Part shown: positions 27,818-35,181 of the stretch, piece by piece
Numbering within the stretch: position 1 is the first letter of the stretch
Layout: every line of letters starts with the position of its first letter
NCBI GenBank assembly: GCA_020050835.1
Contig: JAGVKB010000094.1
Location: 1 to 35,181, forward strand
DNA: 35,181 nt
DNA from: Candidatus Obscuribacterales bacterium
GTDB lineage: Bacteria; Cyanobacteriota; Vampirovibrionia; Obscuribacterales; Obscuribacteraceae
Reading direction: 5' to 3'
Translations under genes and position numbers: made by a program
The notes under the pieces: generated by a model
Told to the model about the DNA's origin: nothing
Databases searched by the model: none
The model's input: the letters and a program-made list of their open reading frames with translations, nothing else

Positions 27818-29137
27818 ATGATGAATTCGTCGACATTGGTTTACTGCGCTCTTGCGCTTACGCTGAGCTCACCGCTTTTGTTTGGCGGCGACACTTTGGC
27901 CGCCCAACAAAGCAAAGCGCCTCAGGAGTCTGCGGCAGCTAGTTCTAAAGCCGCCCACGGGTCCGATCCCGCCGCCGAAGAGTCATTAGCGTCCGCTGAG
28001 TTGTCGGCAGCTGCTCAAAACTTCAAGGGCAATGCCAACGAGTTGAGCTGGAGCGATGTTTTCAAGGCTCTCAAAGTTTTGCTCGTCAAGCCGCAAGCGG
28101 GCCACACCAGCCCGGCTTCGTTGATCAAGCAGAACCCGCTCCTGAATGATCTGGGGGTCAAAGTAGTAGCCGCCGGTTCGGCCCATCTCTGGACCTTCCC
28201 GCGCATACAGCAGTGTCAGGCGATCTTGGTCCAATGGAATGACACCAAAGTGACGAGCGTGCCGGGCGGCAGAAAAGGCAAAACCGCTTCGGTTGTGGTG
28301 TCGCGTGTCGAACCGCTGAGCTTGCCCTCCGGCGTCACGCTCAAAGACGCTCGTGTAATGGAGATCGGCAATCCAACTGAAAAAACAAAAGCAAAATATC
28401 TAATCTGTGTTGGCAGCAAGCCGGATGGTAGCGCCTTATGGCTCGGCAGCTTTCGGGCTGCTGCTGACGGCTGGCACGAAAACAACGAGCCTCTGACAGG
28501 GATACCGCCTTTTCTAATGAGCAATATCTCGGGGATCATCGGGTTTAGCGGGCAAGATTTGATAGTCACTATCGCTCCTACCCTGTCCAAGGCTGTTGCC
28601 GAACAGGAGCCAGCCAAAAGCACGGCCCGGTTGCCAGAATCTCCGGCATCCGGTTATAAGTTGGTATTGAGACTAATCGGCGGCAAGTTTACGCTGGAAG
28701 GCAGCGCGATTGATAACACACCTTACAACGCTGTTTATCAGTTCGTTCATGCAATCTCTCAGGGGAGAACCGACCTCGCAAAGGCCTGGCTCGTCGACCC
28801 CAGCTTGATTAGTATTGCTAAGTACATCGGGCTGGCGTCCAAGCCAGGTGAAACGCCCGCCCGCATAATCAACATGTCCAATGCAAATTTGAACAGCTAT
28901 CGCTACAGGCTTGTTACTTTCGAGCGTTACGATCTCATTTTCGAAGTGACGAAGAGCAAGCAACAATGGGCTATCAAGGCGATGTTCGTCGCTCCCTCCG
29001 ACCCGCTTCTCCAGAAAGTTGCGCGCAGTTTGCAGCCACCGGAAAGCAAGTTGCCGGCTGCCGGTGAAAGCGGCAAACCGGCAGATGCCGCGGAAAAAGG
29101 GGACGAAAAGGTGCCTGTTCGCAAGGGCAAGAATTGA
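27818..29137 (+). CDS. Secreted protein of unknown family
   Basis: A 439-residue protein with a signal peptide of about 29 residues (hydrophobic LVYCALALTLSSPLLFG). A Ser/Ala-rich linker follows to about residue 68, then a globular region (about 75-400) I cannot assign, and a charged Lys/Pro-rich tail. The stretch YQFVHAISQGRTDLAKAWL near residue 308 resembles the start of NTF2-like or lipoprotein-associated domains but is not enough to call one. It begins with two adjacent ATG codons. Its last codons overlap the TTG of the PATAN protein gene (TTGA), so the two are translationally coupled and probably act together. Function unknown. Confidence 0.62.
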   Translation: MMNSSTLVYCALALTLSSPLLFGGDTLAAQQSKAPQESAAASSKAAHGSDPAAEESLASAELSAAAQNFKGNANELSWSDVFKALKVLLVKPQAGHTSPASLIKQNPLLNDLGVKVVAAGSAHLWTFPRIQQCQAILVQWNDTKVTSVPGGRKGKTASVVVSRVEPLSLPSGVTLKDARVMEIGNPTEKTKAKYLICVGSKPDGSALWLGSFRAAADGWHENNEPLTGIPPFLMSNISGIIGFSGQDLIVTIAPTLSKAVAEQEPAKSTARLPESPASGYKLVLRLIGGKFTLEGSAIDNTPYNAVYQFVHAISQGRTDLAKAWLVDPSLISIAKYIGLASKPGETPARIINMSNANLNSYRYRLVTFERYDLIFEVTKSKQQWAIKAMFVAPSDPLLQKVARSLQPPESKLPAAGESGKPADAAEKGDEKVPVRKGKN

Positions 29138-31125
29138 GAAAGCTTGGGGCTGGGCATATAAGTGCAGAGCAATCCCGAAGGATAGGTCTACGGCCGTTGA
29201 CACCACCGCGACAAGGTCTGCCCGCCGGCAACGAGCCGTTTCCCGGAGACGAAGCGGCCGAAGAGCGCAGCTATCTGACTTATGCTTATTCCTTTCGCAC
29301 GTATGCTTATCGTGAAAACCTCCTGGCCGAGCTGGACCGTCTGGTCGATGAAGGCAAGACTTTTGACGGATTGATAGTGGATCTCACCCATACCGGCTAT
29401 TCTTTGCCGTTAGACGCGTTCGTCAACTTCCATGCTTATGCCAGGCGCCTCTTGAAACCGCAGGGGGTCTTGCTTTTCGTTAAGTCAGACGGTGCAATTA
29501 CTTTGACCCGCGACGATCCGGCTGGTGGATTGACATTCAACGTCTATGACAGCGTCTTTGGAATCTTCGCCAGATATCCACTGCTCGCTGACTATGTCTG
29601 TGCCACTATATCCGGTATTGACCGGCGACGCTTGCGCGGCGGTGGCAGTACGCTGGCAAATCACATCCTCTATACTTCGATTCCGATTCTGACCGAAAAG
29701 GGCGGGCAGGTTAAGAGCGCTTTCGAGCTGCCGGCTCCGCAGAATTGGGTCTTGCAGCTTATCGATGATTACAATTCCGTCGAAGCTATCTCCAAAACGA
29801 TGGAGACGCAATACCGTGTTCCTTGCGATGAAACGCTCCGGATCATGCAAGAGTTGGAAGCGGAGAAATTCATTTATCCGATCTTTTCGCGCATTCAATT
29901 CCTGTCTAACTGCTATCACAATCGCAAGCCGTTTCGGTTGGGTCGTTATCTGGTGGCAGCCGGAATCGTCACTCCATCTCAGCTCGAGGAGCTGCTGGAG
30001 ATTCAACAAGAAGAAGGCTGGGGCAGAGCGCAACGGACGATGCTTGGTCTGCTGGCAGTTAGGCATGGCTACTTGAATACGCGCGAGTTGGAAGTGCTAT
30101 TGCACGATCAATATCTTTATGGCGGCTATCATCGAGTCGCAGATGGAGATGACGGCTCCGGCAACAAATCTCGCAACATCGAGACGATGAAGGACTCGAT
30201 GATCGGCAGTTTGGGAGCGATCGATGCCTCCGGTCTCTTGCAGTCGCTGGCAACTGCCAGCAAAACCGGTGTACTGACCGTCGAGAAAAAAGACAAGACA
30301 ATTGTTGTAGCATTCAATGACGGGAAGCCGACGCATGCGCTAATGGGCAAGCTAAAAGGCTACGATGCCCTGACGGAGTTTCTTGTCTTCTGGACCGAGG
30401 GAATTTTTGTATTCAAGGACAAGGGCGAATCGCAGGATCTCGAAGCAAGCTGCGGCTTGAACCAGTCGCTCGATCGCTTGTTGCTCGACTCGGCGCTCTT
30501 CCAGGATCAAACCAGAGAAGTCTTGTCCAGGCTGCCTGCAGGAAAGAACGTCATAATGGAGCGGGTCTGGAACTTTGAGACGGTCTGGGCCACTGTACCC
30601 TTTCAGCAACTGAAATATATTGACGGCGTGCAGCTTTCGCCGGAGGACGCACAACGAGTCTATGCGATCTCTCGTCTGATCGACGGCTGGACTACTTTGG
30701 ATGAAGTGGTAAGGAATTTTGATGTTTGGCCGAGCTACATGGTGGTGAGGTCAATGCAACTTCTGCTCGACTATGGATTCGTGCAGTTTCAGCAAACGAG
30801 CCTCTTTAGACCGCTTTCGGTATTTCAGAAAATCGGTGCGGAGCTGGAGACTGTCCTGGGACCAGATCAGAACAAGGATATGCTCGAGTCCAGTCTGCAT
30901 TATGTGCACGGCAATTCGGATGCCGCTCGCCGATTTCAAGTCGATCCCGACGGCAGGGTCAGCGTCAATCTGACGCAGGTCAAGAAGTCCGGTACTCAGC
31001 TTTCGGCTGTGCTTCTGGATCTCAGGCGGTGGATGGAAGCTTACTTGAGTTATTGCCGGCGCGAAACCGATCCGCGCCTGGTAAATGAAGTGGTGGCACG
31101 GGCGGTGCATGGCACCCTCAATTGA
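29134..31125 (+). CDS. DUF4388 (PATAN) protein with type II secretion ATPase N-terminal-like module
   Basis: A 663-residue cytosolic protein with several parts. Residues about 40-190 form an alpha/beta region with LIVDLTHTGYSLPLDAF that I cannot place. About 210-265 is a helical winged-helix-like segment. About 269-325 resembles the N-terminal module of GspE/PilB ATPases (LGRYLVAAGIVTPSQLEELL), and about 350-430 matches DUF4388/PATAN (GSLGAIDASGLLQSLA, then TGVLTVEKKDKTIVV). The C-terminal region repeats a RLIDGWTTLDEVV-like segment. PATAN proteins occur in gliding and pilus-linked signalling. The TTG at 29134 overlaps the previous stop and has AAGGG six bases upstream; no in-frame ATG occurs for about 225 codons. 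Confidence 0.78.
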   Translation: MRKLGAGHISAEQSRRIGLRPLTPPRQGLPAGNEPFPGDEAAEERSYLTYAYSFRTYAYRENLLAELDRLVDEGKTFDGLIVDLTHTGYSLPLDAFVNFHAYARRLLKPQGVLLFVKSDGAITLTRDDPAGGLTFNVYDSVFGIFARYPLLADYVCATISGIDRRRLRGGGSTLANHILYTSIPILTEKGGQVKSAFELPAPQNWVLQLIDDYNSVEAISKTMETQYRVPCDETLRIMQELEAEKFIYPIFSRIQFLSNCYHNRKPFRLGRYLVAAGIVTPSQLEELLEIQQEEGWGRAQRTMLGLLAVRHGYLNTRELEVLLHDQYLYGGYHRVADGDDGSGNKSRNIETMKDSMIGSLGAIDASGLLQSLATASKTGVLTVEKKDKTIVVAFNDGKPTHALMGKLKGYDALTEFLVFWTEGIFVFKDKGESQDLEASCGLNQSLDRLLLDSALFQDQTREVLSRLPAGKNVIMERVWNFETVWATVPFQQLKYIDGVQLSPEDAQRVYAISRLIDGWTTLDEVVRNFDVWPSYMVVRSMQLLLDYGFVQFQQTSLFRPLSVFQKIGAELETVLGPDQNKDMLESSLHYVHGNSDAARRFQVDPDGRVSVNLTQVKKSGTQLSAVLLDLRRWMEAYLSYCRRETDPRLVNEVVARAVHGTLN

Positions 31126-32718: not shown

Positions 32719-35181
32719 TCAGTGACTGACCAGCTGCGTGATGCTGCGCATCAAGGGAATCAAGCGCTCGGTTTCGGCGCCGTCGCTGAGCGTGACCAGA
32801 ATGCCTCCGCCGAAGTCAGCGATGATTAGATAGCCGCGCGGAGTGCGGCAGACCGCCTGGTGAACGTGATTGTGACCCATTCGCTTGATGGTGGTGTCAG
32901 TGTTTAAGTAGACTCCCAGCGCCCAGACTCCGATTGATTCGGCTTCGAGATCTTGAGGCATGCTATTGGCGATCAAGATTCCGTCGTGACCGACGATTAC
33001 AGAGCCGACTACTCCCGGTTGCTGTTGGATATGCGACAGGAGATTTTGCAGCTCCTGCGCTGCTTCCAGCGTCAAAATGCGCATTTTTGAGTCGGACAGG
33101 TCGGCGGCGGCGATATTGCCGATCTTCGACAGGTCTTGCTGATCCAGCAGAAACTTTCCAATACTGGCAATCTTGCCGCTTCCGGCTTCGGATGATGTAT
33201 CTGCGTGTGTAGCAAGCCTTCCTACCCCTTCGACGCGCGCCGGGGGCGCCGTACCTGGTACCGGCTGTGGTGCTACTGGCGGAGTCGGCGGCGGGGCCAT
33301 CGGTTGAGGCTGTACCTGTGGCGGTGCCATCTGCTGCGGCGGGGCCATGTTCTGCCCGGCCACTTCTGCGACCTGCCGGATCGACTGGACCGCTTCGTTG
33401 ACATTAACCTTTGGTGGCGGTGGGCCGGTATCCTTAACGCCAAGATTATCCGCGAACAGCCTGTCCATCGCGTCATCGTCGATACTGAGCAAGCCTCCGC
33501 CTCTCGGCTGGCTAGCTGCCGGCGGCGCTGGCGGCGGCACGACTGGTGTCACTTGAGATGGTGGCACTGGCGGTGCGGGTTGCGCAGGCGCTGTCGGCAC
33601 CGCCGGGGTCGTCGGGTTACCCCAGTTCTGTGCTGGCGGAGCAGTGGGCGCCGGTGGCTGTGTCCATCCACCGGCGGGCGTTTGTGGGGCCGTCGGCGCC
33701 ACCGGAACTGGTGCTGGTGGTGCCGACGCAGCGGCTGCTGCCGCCGCCGCTTTCTGTTGTTCGGTAACGCCGAGGTTGTCCGCGAACAGCTTGTCCATCG
33801 CTCCGTCATCCAAGTTCTTGAACAAACCGCCGCCAGGTTGGCTAGCTGCTGGTACAGGTGGAGCCGGTGGCACGACTGTTTCATTTTGAGCGCGAGCGGT
33901 GACGGGAGAGATCGTTGGAGCAGTTGGTACTGGCAGTGGTGGCGCAGTGAACGGGCTGGGTACCGGTGGTGGCGGTACCGGTGGTGGCGGTACGCTCGTT
34001 GCTGCCCGTGCGCCGCCGACTGGTTGATCTTGCACCCCGAGGTTCTTGTTGAAGAGATTATCCATCGCACTGTCGTCAAGGCTGAACAGACCTCCGCCCG
34101 GTTGGGGAGAGGCTGGTGCGACGGCTGGAGCTTGCCCTTGTTTCATTCGCTCTTGGATTGGCACGTCCCAGCGCTCCTGGGCGGCGGCCGCTGGAACCGG
34201 AGCTTGGGCTGAAGCTGGCGCTGCTTCCGGCTGTGCTTGCCGCAGCCGCTCTTGAATTGGCACATCCCAGCGCTCTGCGGTTGGAGCAGCTTCGGCAGCG
34301 GCTGCTGGCTTTTGCCGCTCCTGGATCGGCACATCCCAGCGATCGGCTACCGGAGCTGGACCTGCTGGTTCCGGCGTTTGCAGCGCCGGTGCCGGTGGGG
34401 CCGCTGCCGGGCCATCGCCGAGAATATTACTGAGTCTGTCCATGATGGAGTCTGCAGGCAATCCGCCAGAGGCGGCAGGTTGCGGCGCGACTGGTTGGGG
34501 CGCCGGTGCTTGACCGCGTTGCTGAATCGGCACATCCCAACGATCTTCTGCTTGTCCGGCTGCCGGCGCGGCCGGTTGCCCACGCCCTTGAATCGGCGTA
34601 TCCCAGCGCGCATCTCCCTCGGGCGTTGCCGCTGGCTGTGCTTGTTTCATGCGCTCTTGAATTGGCACGTCCCACCGCTCCCCGGCTGGTTCGCTGGCCG
34701 GCGCCGCCGGTGGTATCGGCGGCTGCGCCCCCCATTGCTGAGCGGCTGGATTCGGCGCTGCATTTGTGGCGCCTAGGACATTTGTGTTGCCGGGAGAAAA
34801 CGCTTCCCAGGTGCCTGTTTGTACCTGTTCCGCCTCGGCTGACCATCCGGCAGCCGGTGCTTGTGGCACGGGTGGCTCGTCCCAAGAGTTGTTGCCGGCA
34901 GTGGGCTGGTTCCAATCGGCTTGAGCAGCTGGCTGGCCGCTGCCGGTTGTCCAGTTGTCCGGCCCGCCGCCCCAACTGTTGTCTGCTGGAGCCGGTGTCG
35001 GCGGCGCACCAGCAGCTTGGTCTGAGCCGGGGGAATCCCAACCTGAGCCGGCTGCCGAACTGTTGCCGGCTGAGGTGTTACTCCAGCCGCCGCCTTGCGG
35101 TTGGGGTTGAGGTGGTTGTTCCCAGCCGCCGCCTTGCGGTTGGGGTTGAGGTGGTTGTTCCCAGCCGCCGCCTTGCGGTTG
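32719..35181 (-). CDS. Very long Pro/Ala-rich repeat protein with C-terminal Roadblock/LC7 domain (partial)
   Basis: The frame stays open to the right edge, so at least 820 residues are visible and the start is missing. The C-terminal 125 or so residues form a Roadblock/LC7 domain (VVGSVIVGHDGILIANSMP, then RGYLIIADFGGGIL), the fold of MglB and of GTPase regulators. The rest is rich in Pro, Ala, Gln and Gly. It carries tandem 13-residue QPQGGGWEQPPQP units at the edge, six copies of RWD[VT]PIQ[EGQ]R, and three modules of the type LDD-x-AMD-x-LF-x2-NLGV plus a degenerate one (SIMDRLSNILGDG). No signal peptide can be judged. The repeated conserved motifs in disordered sequence suggest binding sites for one or two partners. 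It converges on pepA. Confidence 0.85.
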   Translation of the reverse strand, partial: QPQGGGWEQPPQPQPQGGGWEQPPQPQPQGGGWSNTSAGNSSAAGSGWDSPGSDQAAGAPPTPAPADNSWGGGPDNWTTGSGQPAAQADWNQPTAGNNSWDEPPVPQAPAAGWSAEAEQVQTGTWEAFSPGNTNVLGATNAAPNPAAQQWGAQPPIPPAAPASEPAGERWDVPIQERMKQAQPAATPEGDARWDTPIQGRGQPAAPAAGQAEDRWDVPIQQRGQAPAPQPVAPQPAASGGLPADSIMDRLSNILGDGPAAAPPAPALQTPEPAGPAPVADRWDVPIQERQKPAAAAEAAPTAERWDVPIQERLRQAQPEAAPASAQAPVPAAAAQERWDVPIQERMKQGQAPAVAPASPQPGGGLFSLDDSAMDNLFNKNLGVQDQPVGGARAATSVPPPPVPPPPVPSPFTAPPLPVPTAPTISPVTARAQNETVVPPAPPVPAASQPGGGLFKNLDDGAMDKLFADNLGVTEQQKAAAAAAAASAPPAPVPVAPTAPQTPAGGWTQPPAPTAPPAQNWGNPTTPAVPTAPAQPAPPVPPSQVTPVVPPPAPPAASQPRGGGLLSIDDDAMDRLFADNLGVKDTGPPPPKVNVNEAVQSIRQVAEVAGQNMAPPQQMAPPQVQPQPMAPPPTPPVAPQPVPGTAPPARVEGVGRLATHADTSSEAGSGKIASIGKFLLDQQDLSKIGNIAAADLSDSKMRILTLEAAQELQNLLSHIQQQPGVVGSVIVGHDGILIANSMPQDLEAESIGVWALGVYLNTDTTIKRMGHNHVHQAVCRTPRGYLIIADFGGGILVTLSDGAETERLIPLMRSITQLVSH
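33433..34098 (-). repeat. Three LDD-AMD-LF-NLGV protein modules
   Basis: Copies lie at about 33433-33503, 33766-33836 and 34033-34098, each reading GG-L-x-(3-4)-DD-x-AMD-x-LF-x2-NLGV. They are predicted amphipathic helices separated by proline-rich linkers of roughly 65-90 residues. A weaker fourth copy is near 34416-34470. Confidence 0.8.
34148..34678 (-). repeat. Six copies of the RWD[VT]PIQ motif
   Basis: Copies lie at about 34148-34175, 34247-34274, 34316-34343, 34515-34542, 34583-34609 and 34652-34678. The nine-residue core is nearly invariant (one Val to Thr, two Glu changes) while the linkers vary freely, which implies selection on the motif and not recent DNA duplication. Confidence 0.85.
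35084..35181. repeat. Perfect 39-bp tandem repeat running off the window
   Basis: Two complete identical units (35084-35122 and 35123-35161) and the first 20 bases of a third are visible. The period is 13 codons in the frame of the Roadblock protein, encoding QPQGGGWEQPPQP. Absence of spacers rules out CRISPR. More units may lie beyond the edge. Confidence 0.95.

Follow-up and report, generated by a model that had tools for sequence, protein, structure and literature searches.

A predicted soluble anti-sigma factor of the Obscuribacterales that joins an RsiW-like zinc head to a Roadblock tail with putative MglA-docking helices

The reading frame at positions 32719-35181 (minus strand) of a contig from a Candidatus Obscuribacterales bacterium encodes part of what is probably a soluble anti-sigma factor, whose N-terminal head would sit on an ECF sigma factor and whose C-terminal Roadblock domain and repeated short helices would dock the GTPase MglA, a reading to which we assign a probability of roughly 0.6. 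The window analyzed, 35,181 nucleotides in length, is one entire contig (C145) of a 7.0-Mb draft genome (G000), and the frame of 820 codons is open at the contig end, with the 5′ end of the gene missing.

The contig terminates in a 39-bp tandem repeat, QPQGGGWEQPPQP (positions 35083-35181, minus strand), which is the site of the assembly break, and the same repeat terminates a second contig of this genome, C87. A search of the genome with the protein locates the N-terminal 355 codons on C87 (positions 93856-94920), in a frame that begins MNCNRFRFLIQQ...HLDSCQSC and runs into the contig end within the same 39-bp repeat. Both pieces align with a single 1109-codon gene of the orthologue L037, which joins the two halves, and relatives show a matching gene order on both flanks of the split gene. 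By this comparison of sequences, the frame in the window is the C-terminal part of a longer gene, cut by the contig end inside the 39-bp repeat. The 16 full-length orthologues, all from Obscuribacterales, range from 744 to 1734 residues, and the complete gene, as laid out in these sequences, encodes an RsiW-like zinc anti-sigma head, a disordered linker of 550-1500 residues, and a C-terminal Roadblock domain. The head and the sigma gene upstream of it escaped the first-pass annotation of the window because the sequence available to it ended with the contig; the assembly break within the repeat concealed the very domain by which the protein can be understood.

When 17 N-termini are combined in a profile, the Bacillus anti-sigma factor RsiW (5wuq_C) is matched with an E value of 9.3e-7, and no other PDB match falls below 0.1. 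The anti-sigma assignment rests on this family profile because single-sequence matches to the head are weak, with zf-HC2 at E 0.03-0.1 and an NCBIfam anti-sigma model at 0.0014, both below cut-off. The zinc motif, C3...H29xxxC33xxC36, is retained in 14 of the 17 N-termini, and the other three lose the ligands together, as metal ligands would. These ligand-less heads (L040:12553-12852, L045:13847-14146, and L044:7593-7892) are observed in proteins that retain the remainder of the architecture, and published anti-sigma groups likewise combine zinc and non-zinc members (PMC7406223). No transmembrane stretch is found in the protein. By its ligands, its homology, and its co-encoding with an ECF sigma gene, the predicted head fits the class I zinc anti-sigma factors (ASDI/ZAS), and the protein is very probably an anti-sigma factor.

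The features of the head also bear on where a signal might enter. In one alternative, the zinc head itself would sense the signal, as in the redox-responsive RsrA/ChrR type, and the linker and Roadblock domain would merely dimerize or position the protein. A soluble protein with an HxxxCxxC head, from a class that is often redox-sensing (PMC7406223), and the retention of the zinc ligands in most of the family are consistent with such a sensor. However, the three lineages without ligands still keep the modules, the Roadblock domain, and the sigma factor, which argues that the system can do without zinc, and the most conserved parts of the protein are found in its tail rather than in its head. 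We consider a redox-sensing head unlikely, and favor a head that holds the sigma factor while the tail takes the input.

The gene directly upstream of the anti-sigma gene is on the same strand in 17 of 17 loci and encodes a product of 189-195 residues; the two genes lie 15-39 nt apart in 14 loci and 63-120 nt apart in the remaining three. A profile of the upstream proteins matches ECF sigma structures from end to end (AlgU/SigH, 1.8e-10; RpoE, 1.1e-8; SigW, 1.3e-7), and the region 4 helix-turn-helix, Sigma70_r4_2, is present in all 17. No Pfam model matches the divergent region 2 of the 17 proteins, for which reason binding to core RNA polymerase is not assured; the full-length profile alignment to AlgU/RpoE does cover region 2 (1e-10), and TIGR02937 scores 40.6 bits, just below its cut-off of 42.9. 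The upstream protein likely works as a sigma factor. A sigma orthologue is found in 38 of 39 Obscuribacterales genomes and, at comparable scores, in none outside the order; the exception, G008, which is 98% complete, lacks both the sigma and the anti-sigma gene. The head and the linked sigma gene are kept at every locus with a readable 5′ flank, and the assignment of the two genes to an ECF sigma/anti-sigma pair in an apparent two-gene operon is strongly supported. A search upstream of the sigma gene for a conserved bipartite promoter yields no pair that is common above shuffles. An element, TGTAAACT, that by eye is common to several loci in this region resembles an ordinary -10, and there is thus no sign of sigma autoregulation.

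At the other end of the protein, the last ~100 residues constitute a Roadblock/LC7 domain (positions 32791-33048, minus strand), a fold that had been proposed from the letters alone and that is borne out here by three lines of evidence. Pfam PF03259 is matched at 33.5 bits, where the cut-off is 23; the AlphaFold model of the domain has a pLDDT above 90 and the expected order of helices and strands; and a Foldseek search with this model finds Asgard Roadblock, Ragulator, and M. xanthus MglB structures, with E values of 5e-8 to 2e-6 and a TM(target) of ~0.77-0.82 for Asgard Roadblock and M. xanthus MglB. Asgard/dynein Roadblock proteins resemble the domain more closely than MglB does, in both sequence and fold score. 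Directly N-terminal of the domain, the SGKIASIGKFLLD block (positions 33142-33180, minus strand) is more conserved than any other stretch of the tail, with a mean column entropy of 0.31 bits compared with 1.02 overall in 17 orthologues, and Roadblock proteins from other parts of the phylum share this block. Additional Roadblock genes are observed in two genomes (L051:7663-8538 and L052:7415-8251) directly downstream of the anti-sigma gene with a slight overlap, an arrangement that suggests Roadblock heterodimers. The genome studied here also contains a paralogue of 1191 residues (L035:6208-9780, on contig C97), which has a hydrophobic segment at its N-terminus and contains two Roadblock domains with SIGKML[LI]D ahead of each, and which sits among housekeeping genes near two phenylalanyl-tRNA synthetase genes.

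Between the head and the Roadblock domain, the protein is predicted to be largely disordered. The stretch that precedes the domain, more than 640 residues in length, is rich in Pro, Ala, and Gln, and the linker of the fully modeled orthologue L038 has a pLDDT mostly below 50, in agreement with the long disordered region described in the first-pass annotation. The motif counts given there, six RWD[VT]PIQ motifs and three LDDxAMDxLFxxNLGV modules, are reproduced by pattern searches. The six RWDxPIQ motifs (positions 34153-34173, 34252-34272, 34321-34341, 34522-34542, 34588-34608, and 34657-34677, all minus strand) are the only matches to a degenerate DNA pattern in the 7-Mb genome, with zero matches for the reversed control, and three of the five genome matches to the NLG pattern fall in this frame; within the genome, the two motif families are essentially private to this protein. 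The pattern DDxxxDxxF has three further carriers in the genome, a number equal to that of the reversed control. The modules are designated 1 to 3 from the N-terminal side: module 1, SLDDSAMDNLFNKNLGV (positions 34033-34083); module 2, NLDDGAMDKLFADNLGV (positions 33766-33816); and module 3, SIDDDAMDRLFADNLGV (positions 33436-33486), a predicted MglA-docking helix that is helical in the AlphaFold model and resembles the Ct-helix of MglB, all on the minus strand. Two other motifs on this strand occur in one copy each: DSIMDRLSNILGD (positions 34414-34452), which is retained in some orthologues, and AEQVQTGTWEAF (AEQxxTGxWxAF; positions 34798-34833), which is retained in nearly all.

The two repeated motifs differ in how they fare across the orthologues. 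Both had been taken to be conserved, and the comparison with related genomes upholds this for the module only: DDxx[IMV]Dx[LI]F modules are present in two to three copies in 16 of 16 full-length orthologues, despite the more than twofold range in protein length, whereas RWDxPIQ-like motifs vary from zero to six copies and are absent or degenerate in many. In L038, the three modules form helices in the AlphaFold model, with a block pLDDT of up to 78. RWDxPIQ as an essential conserved partner motif is rejected on account of this variability. The first-pass annotation had interpreted the protein as a multivalent scaffold, bringing partners of two kinds together at a polar site under Roadblock control, rather than as a transcription regulator. 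Short motifs repeated in a long disordered region and a Roadblock fold would suit such a scaffold, but because RWDxPIQ is dispensable, there is no support for a second type of partner as a requirement, and an anti-sigma head and linked sigma gene, conserved wherever the 5′ flank can be read, point instead to a transcription regulator. We regard the two-partner scaffold as very improbable.

What the modules might bind is suggested by a resemblance to MglB. A profile of 30 modules, compared with all PDB chains, gives three matches at E ≤ 10; each is to a construct of M. xanthus MglB (E 3-5) and falls at the Ct-helix, EISDDDIDNLFSE. The resemblance is short and, at such E values, not significant alone, and we treat it as suggestive only. 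It deserves attention because no other protein is matched and because the matched segment is the MglA-docking helix: the Ct-helix of MglB docks in a pocket of MglA, as established by crystallography and mutation, with contacts between D154 and K185 and between F157 and K181 (PMC6785124). In an ungapped alignment, the modules retain the D and F equivalent to D154 and F157 of MglB. When the 13-residue Ct-helix of MglB is scanned against 126,000 residues of ORFs from the studied loci, the best 20 hits are all LDDxAMDxLF modules of this protein family, and rank 21 is an MgtE-like protein. Among 5000 shuffles of the linker, the score of the best module is reached 0 times and that of the weakest 4 times. 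A reversed-module profile has no PDB match, although this is a weak control with 10 rows as opposed to 30. The module helices lie N-terminal of the Roadblock domain.

The proposed binding partner is present in the genome. The encoded MglA has 192 residues and gives an ungapped phmmer match of 1e-78 to M. xanthus MglA, and an Arf search of the genome returns one weak match (1.1e-6), a frame that corresponds to the full MglA; small GTPases, earlier named as candidate partners, are thus plausible. The catalytic residues Arg53 and Gln82 and the pocket residues K181 and K185 are conserved in 11 of 11 MglA orthologues, within and beyond the family. MglA is found in 37 of 39 Obscuribacterales genomes (the remaining two are 65-66% complete) and is absent from all 21 genomes of the same class outside the order. 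In a draw of 194 genomes from the phylum, MglA occurs in 13 of 13 genomes that have this Roadblock family and in 5 of 181 that lack it (Fisher 1e-16, with kinship ignored). The mglA gene is on a different contig from the anti-sigma gene and is not adjacent to it, and because of this lack of coupling, the anti-sigma/Roadblock protein is not filed as MglB. MglA is also carried by G008 without the sigma/anti-sigma pair, indicating that it has other roles. The MglA gene of the genome studied (L072:6958-7533; C109:50957-51532) encodes an unusually conserved protein, with 93-98% identity between the genera of the family; the P-loop in Obscuribacterales reads GTGLGGKT, not GPGLCGKT, and larger genomes hold a second, more divergent MglA.

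Relatives of the tail are found in a different genetic setting. Other members of the phylum have a homologous Roadblock protein without the anti-sigma head, carrying three to eight copies of a related module, GG[LM]FDxxxLDxALDDLF, and these headless homologues adjoin a small Roadblock gene together with pilB, pilT, and pilC. The pilus-linked proteins L106:4507-6699, L108:4959-6938, and L112:683-2590 are membrane-anchored or soluble. Similar to the protein described here, these three have a SIGK[FM]L[VL]DQ block, a Roadblock domain, a Pro/Ala-rich region, LDxLDxLF repeats, and MglA in their genomes; they differ in having no anti-sigma head and no adjoining sigma gene, and in being placed in a type IV pilus operon instead. 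The Roadblock-LDxLF layout seems older than the anti-sigma fusion because homologues across the phylum lack the head, and its original setting, judged from gene neighborhoods, seems to be type IV pili. This setting raises the alternative that the modules bind a component of the type IV pilus, such as PilB, and that the anti-sigma factor is a sensor of pilus assembly. A comparison of the pilus-associated modules of other phylum members with the PDB gives no match, and MglB is not retrieved, a result that weakens the case for MglA docking. The sole structural look-alike of the modules studied here is, however, the MglA-binding helix of MglB, and MglA always accompanies the Roadblock family; moreover, MglA controls type IV pili in Myxococcus, so that a pilus context fits MglA too. 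Direct binding to the pilus is, in our estimation, quite improbable, and docking to MglA is preferred.

The other genes of the window offer little in the way of partners. A DUF4388 (PATAN-type) protein encoded at positions 29134-31125 is a conserved neighbor with a sub-cut-off match to an MshE-type c-di-GMP-binding motif and is possibly c-di-GMP responsive. It had been suggested as a partner, but its gene carries neither RWDxPIQ nor LDD-AMD-LF motifs and is merely a neighbor. The aminopeptidase, LysM, and DUF4388 genes, which are convergent or not co-operonic and have no motifs, are rejected as functional partners.

In the mechanism that we propose, the head would bind and silence the upstream sigma factor in the cytoplasm, and the Roadblock domain would dimerize as in MglB. 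The Roadblock dimer and the LDDxAMDxLF helices, as equivalents of the MglB Ct-helix, would dock MglA, and the nucleotide state or location of MglA would decide whether the sigma factor is held or released. Whether the tail regulates through MglA we judge to be close to an even bet. Somewhat more tentative is the proposal that this GTPase, a Ras-like protein, directly controls the sigma factor, such that polarity or the state of the surface or pilus would be read out as transcription. By carrying several docking helices along its extended linker, the protein could bind MglA with higher avidity or count MglA molecules, but it is doubtful that the multivalency of the modules matters.

Comparison with known systems shows where the protein departs from each. 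Similar to RsiW, which pairs with SigW in Bacillus subtilis (PDB 5WUQ), it has a matching N-terminal profile, an HxxxCxxC motif, and a gene that immediately follows one for an ECF sigma factor, but in place of a transmembrane segment it has the 550-1500-residue linker and the C-terminal Roadblock domain. It shares with M. xanthus MglB (PDB 6IZW) a Roadblock fold and a DDxIDxLF helix outside the domain, and an MglA with K181/K185 is encoded in the genome; it differs in that two to three helices precede the domain, the identity is ~13%, an anti-sigma head is fused, and the regulation of a GTPase is only putative. The Streptomyces conservons (CvnA-D) likewise place an MglB-like Roadblock protein and an MglA-like GTPase in a signaling system, but as separate proteins with a histidine kinase and with no anti-sigma fusion. 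Each part of the protein is thus of a known kind, and the combination of an anti-sigma factor with a Roadblock domain and modules appears to be new to us. Full-text searches of an open-access library retrieve neither an anti-sigma factor with a Roadblock domain nor an MglA-controlled sigma factor, nor, in agreement with the first-pass annotation, a described protein of such a layout.

The signals to which anti-sigma factors respond usually enter by way of membrane-spanning or redox-active parts. If the proposal is correct, the Roadblock tail and the repeated GTPase-docking helices would give a soluble anti-sigma factor a new mode of input, joining ECF sigma factors to Ras-like polarity GTPases, a link that is likewise not found in the open-access papers searched. 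An orphan Roadblock protein thereby gains a testable function, and disordered repeats that seemed meaningless gain a testable partner.
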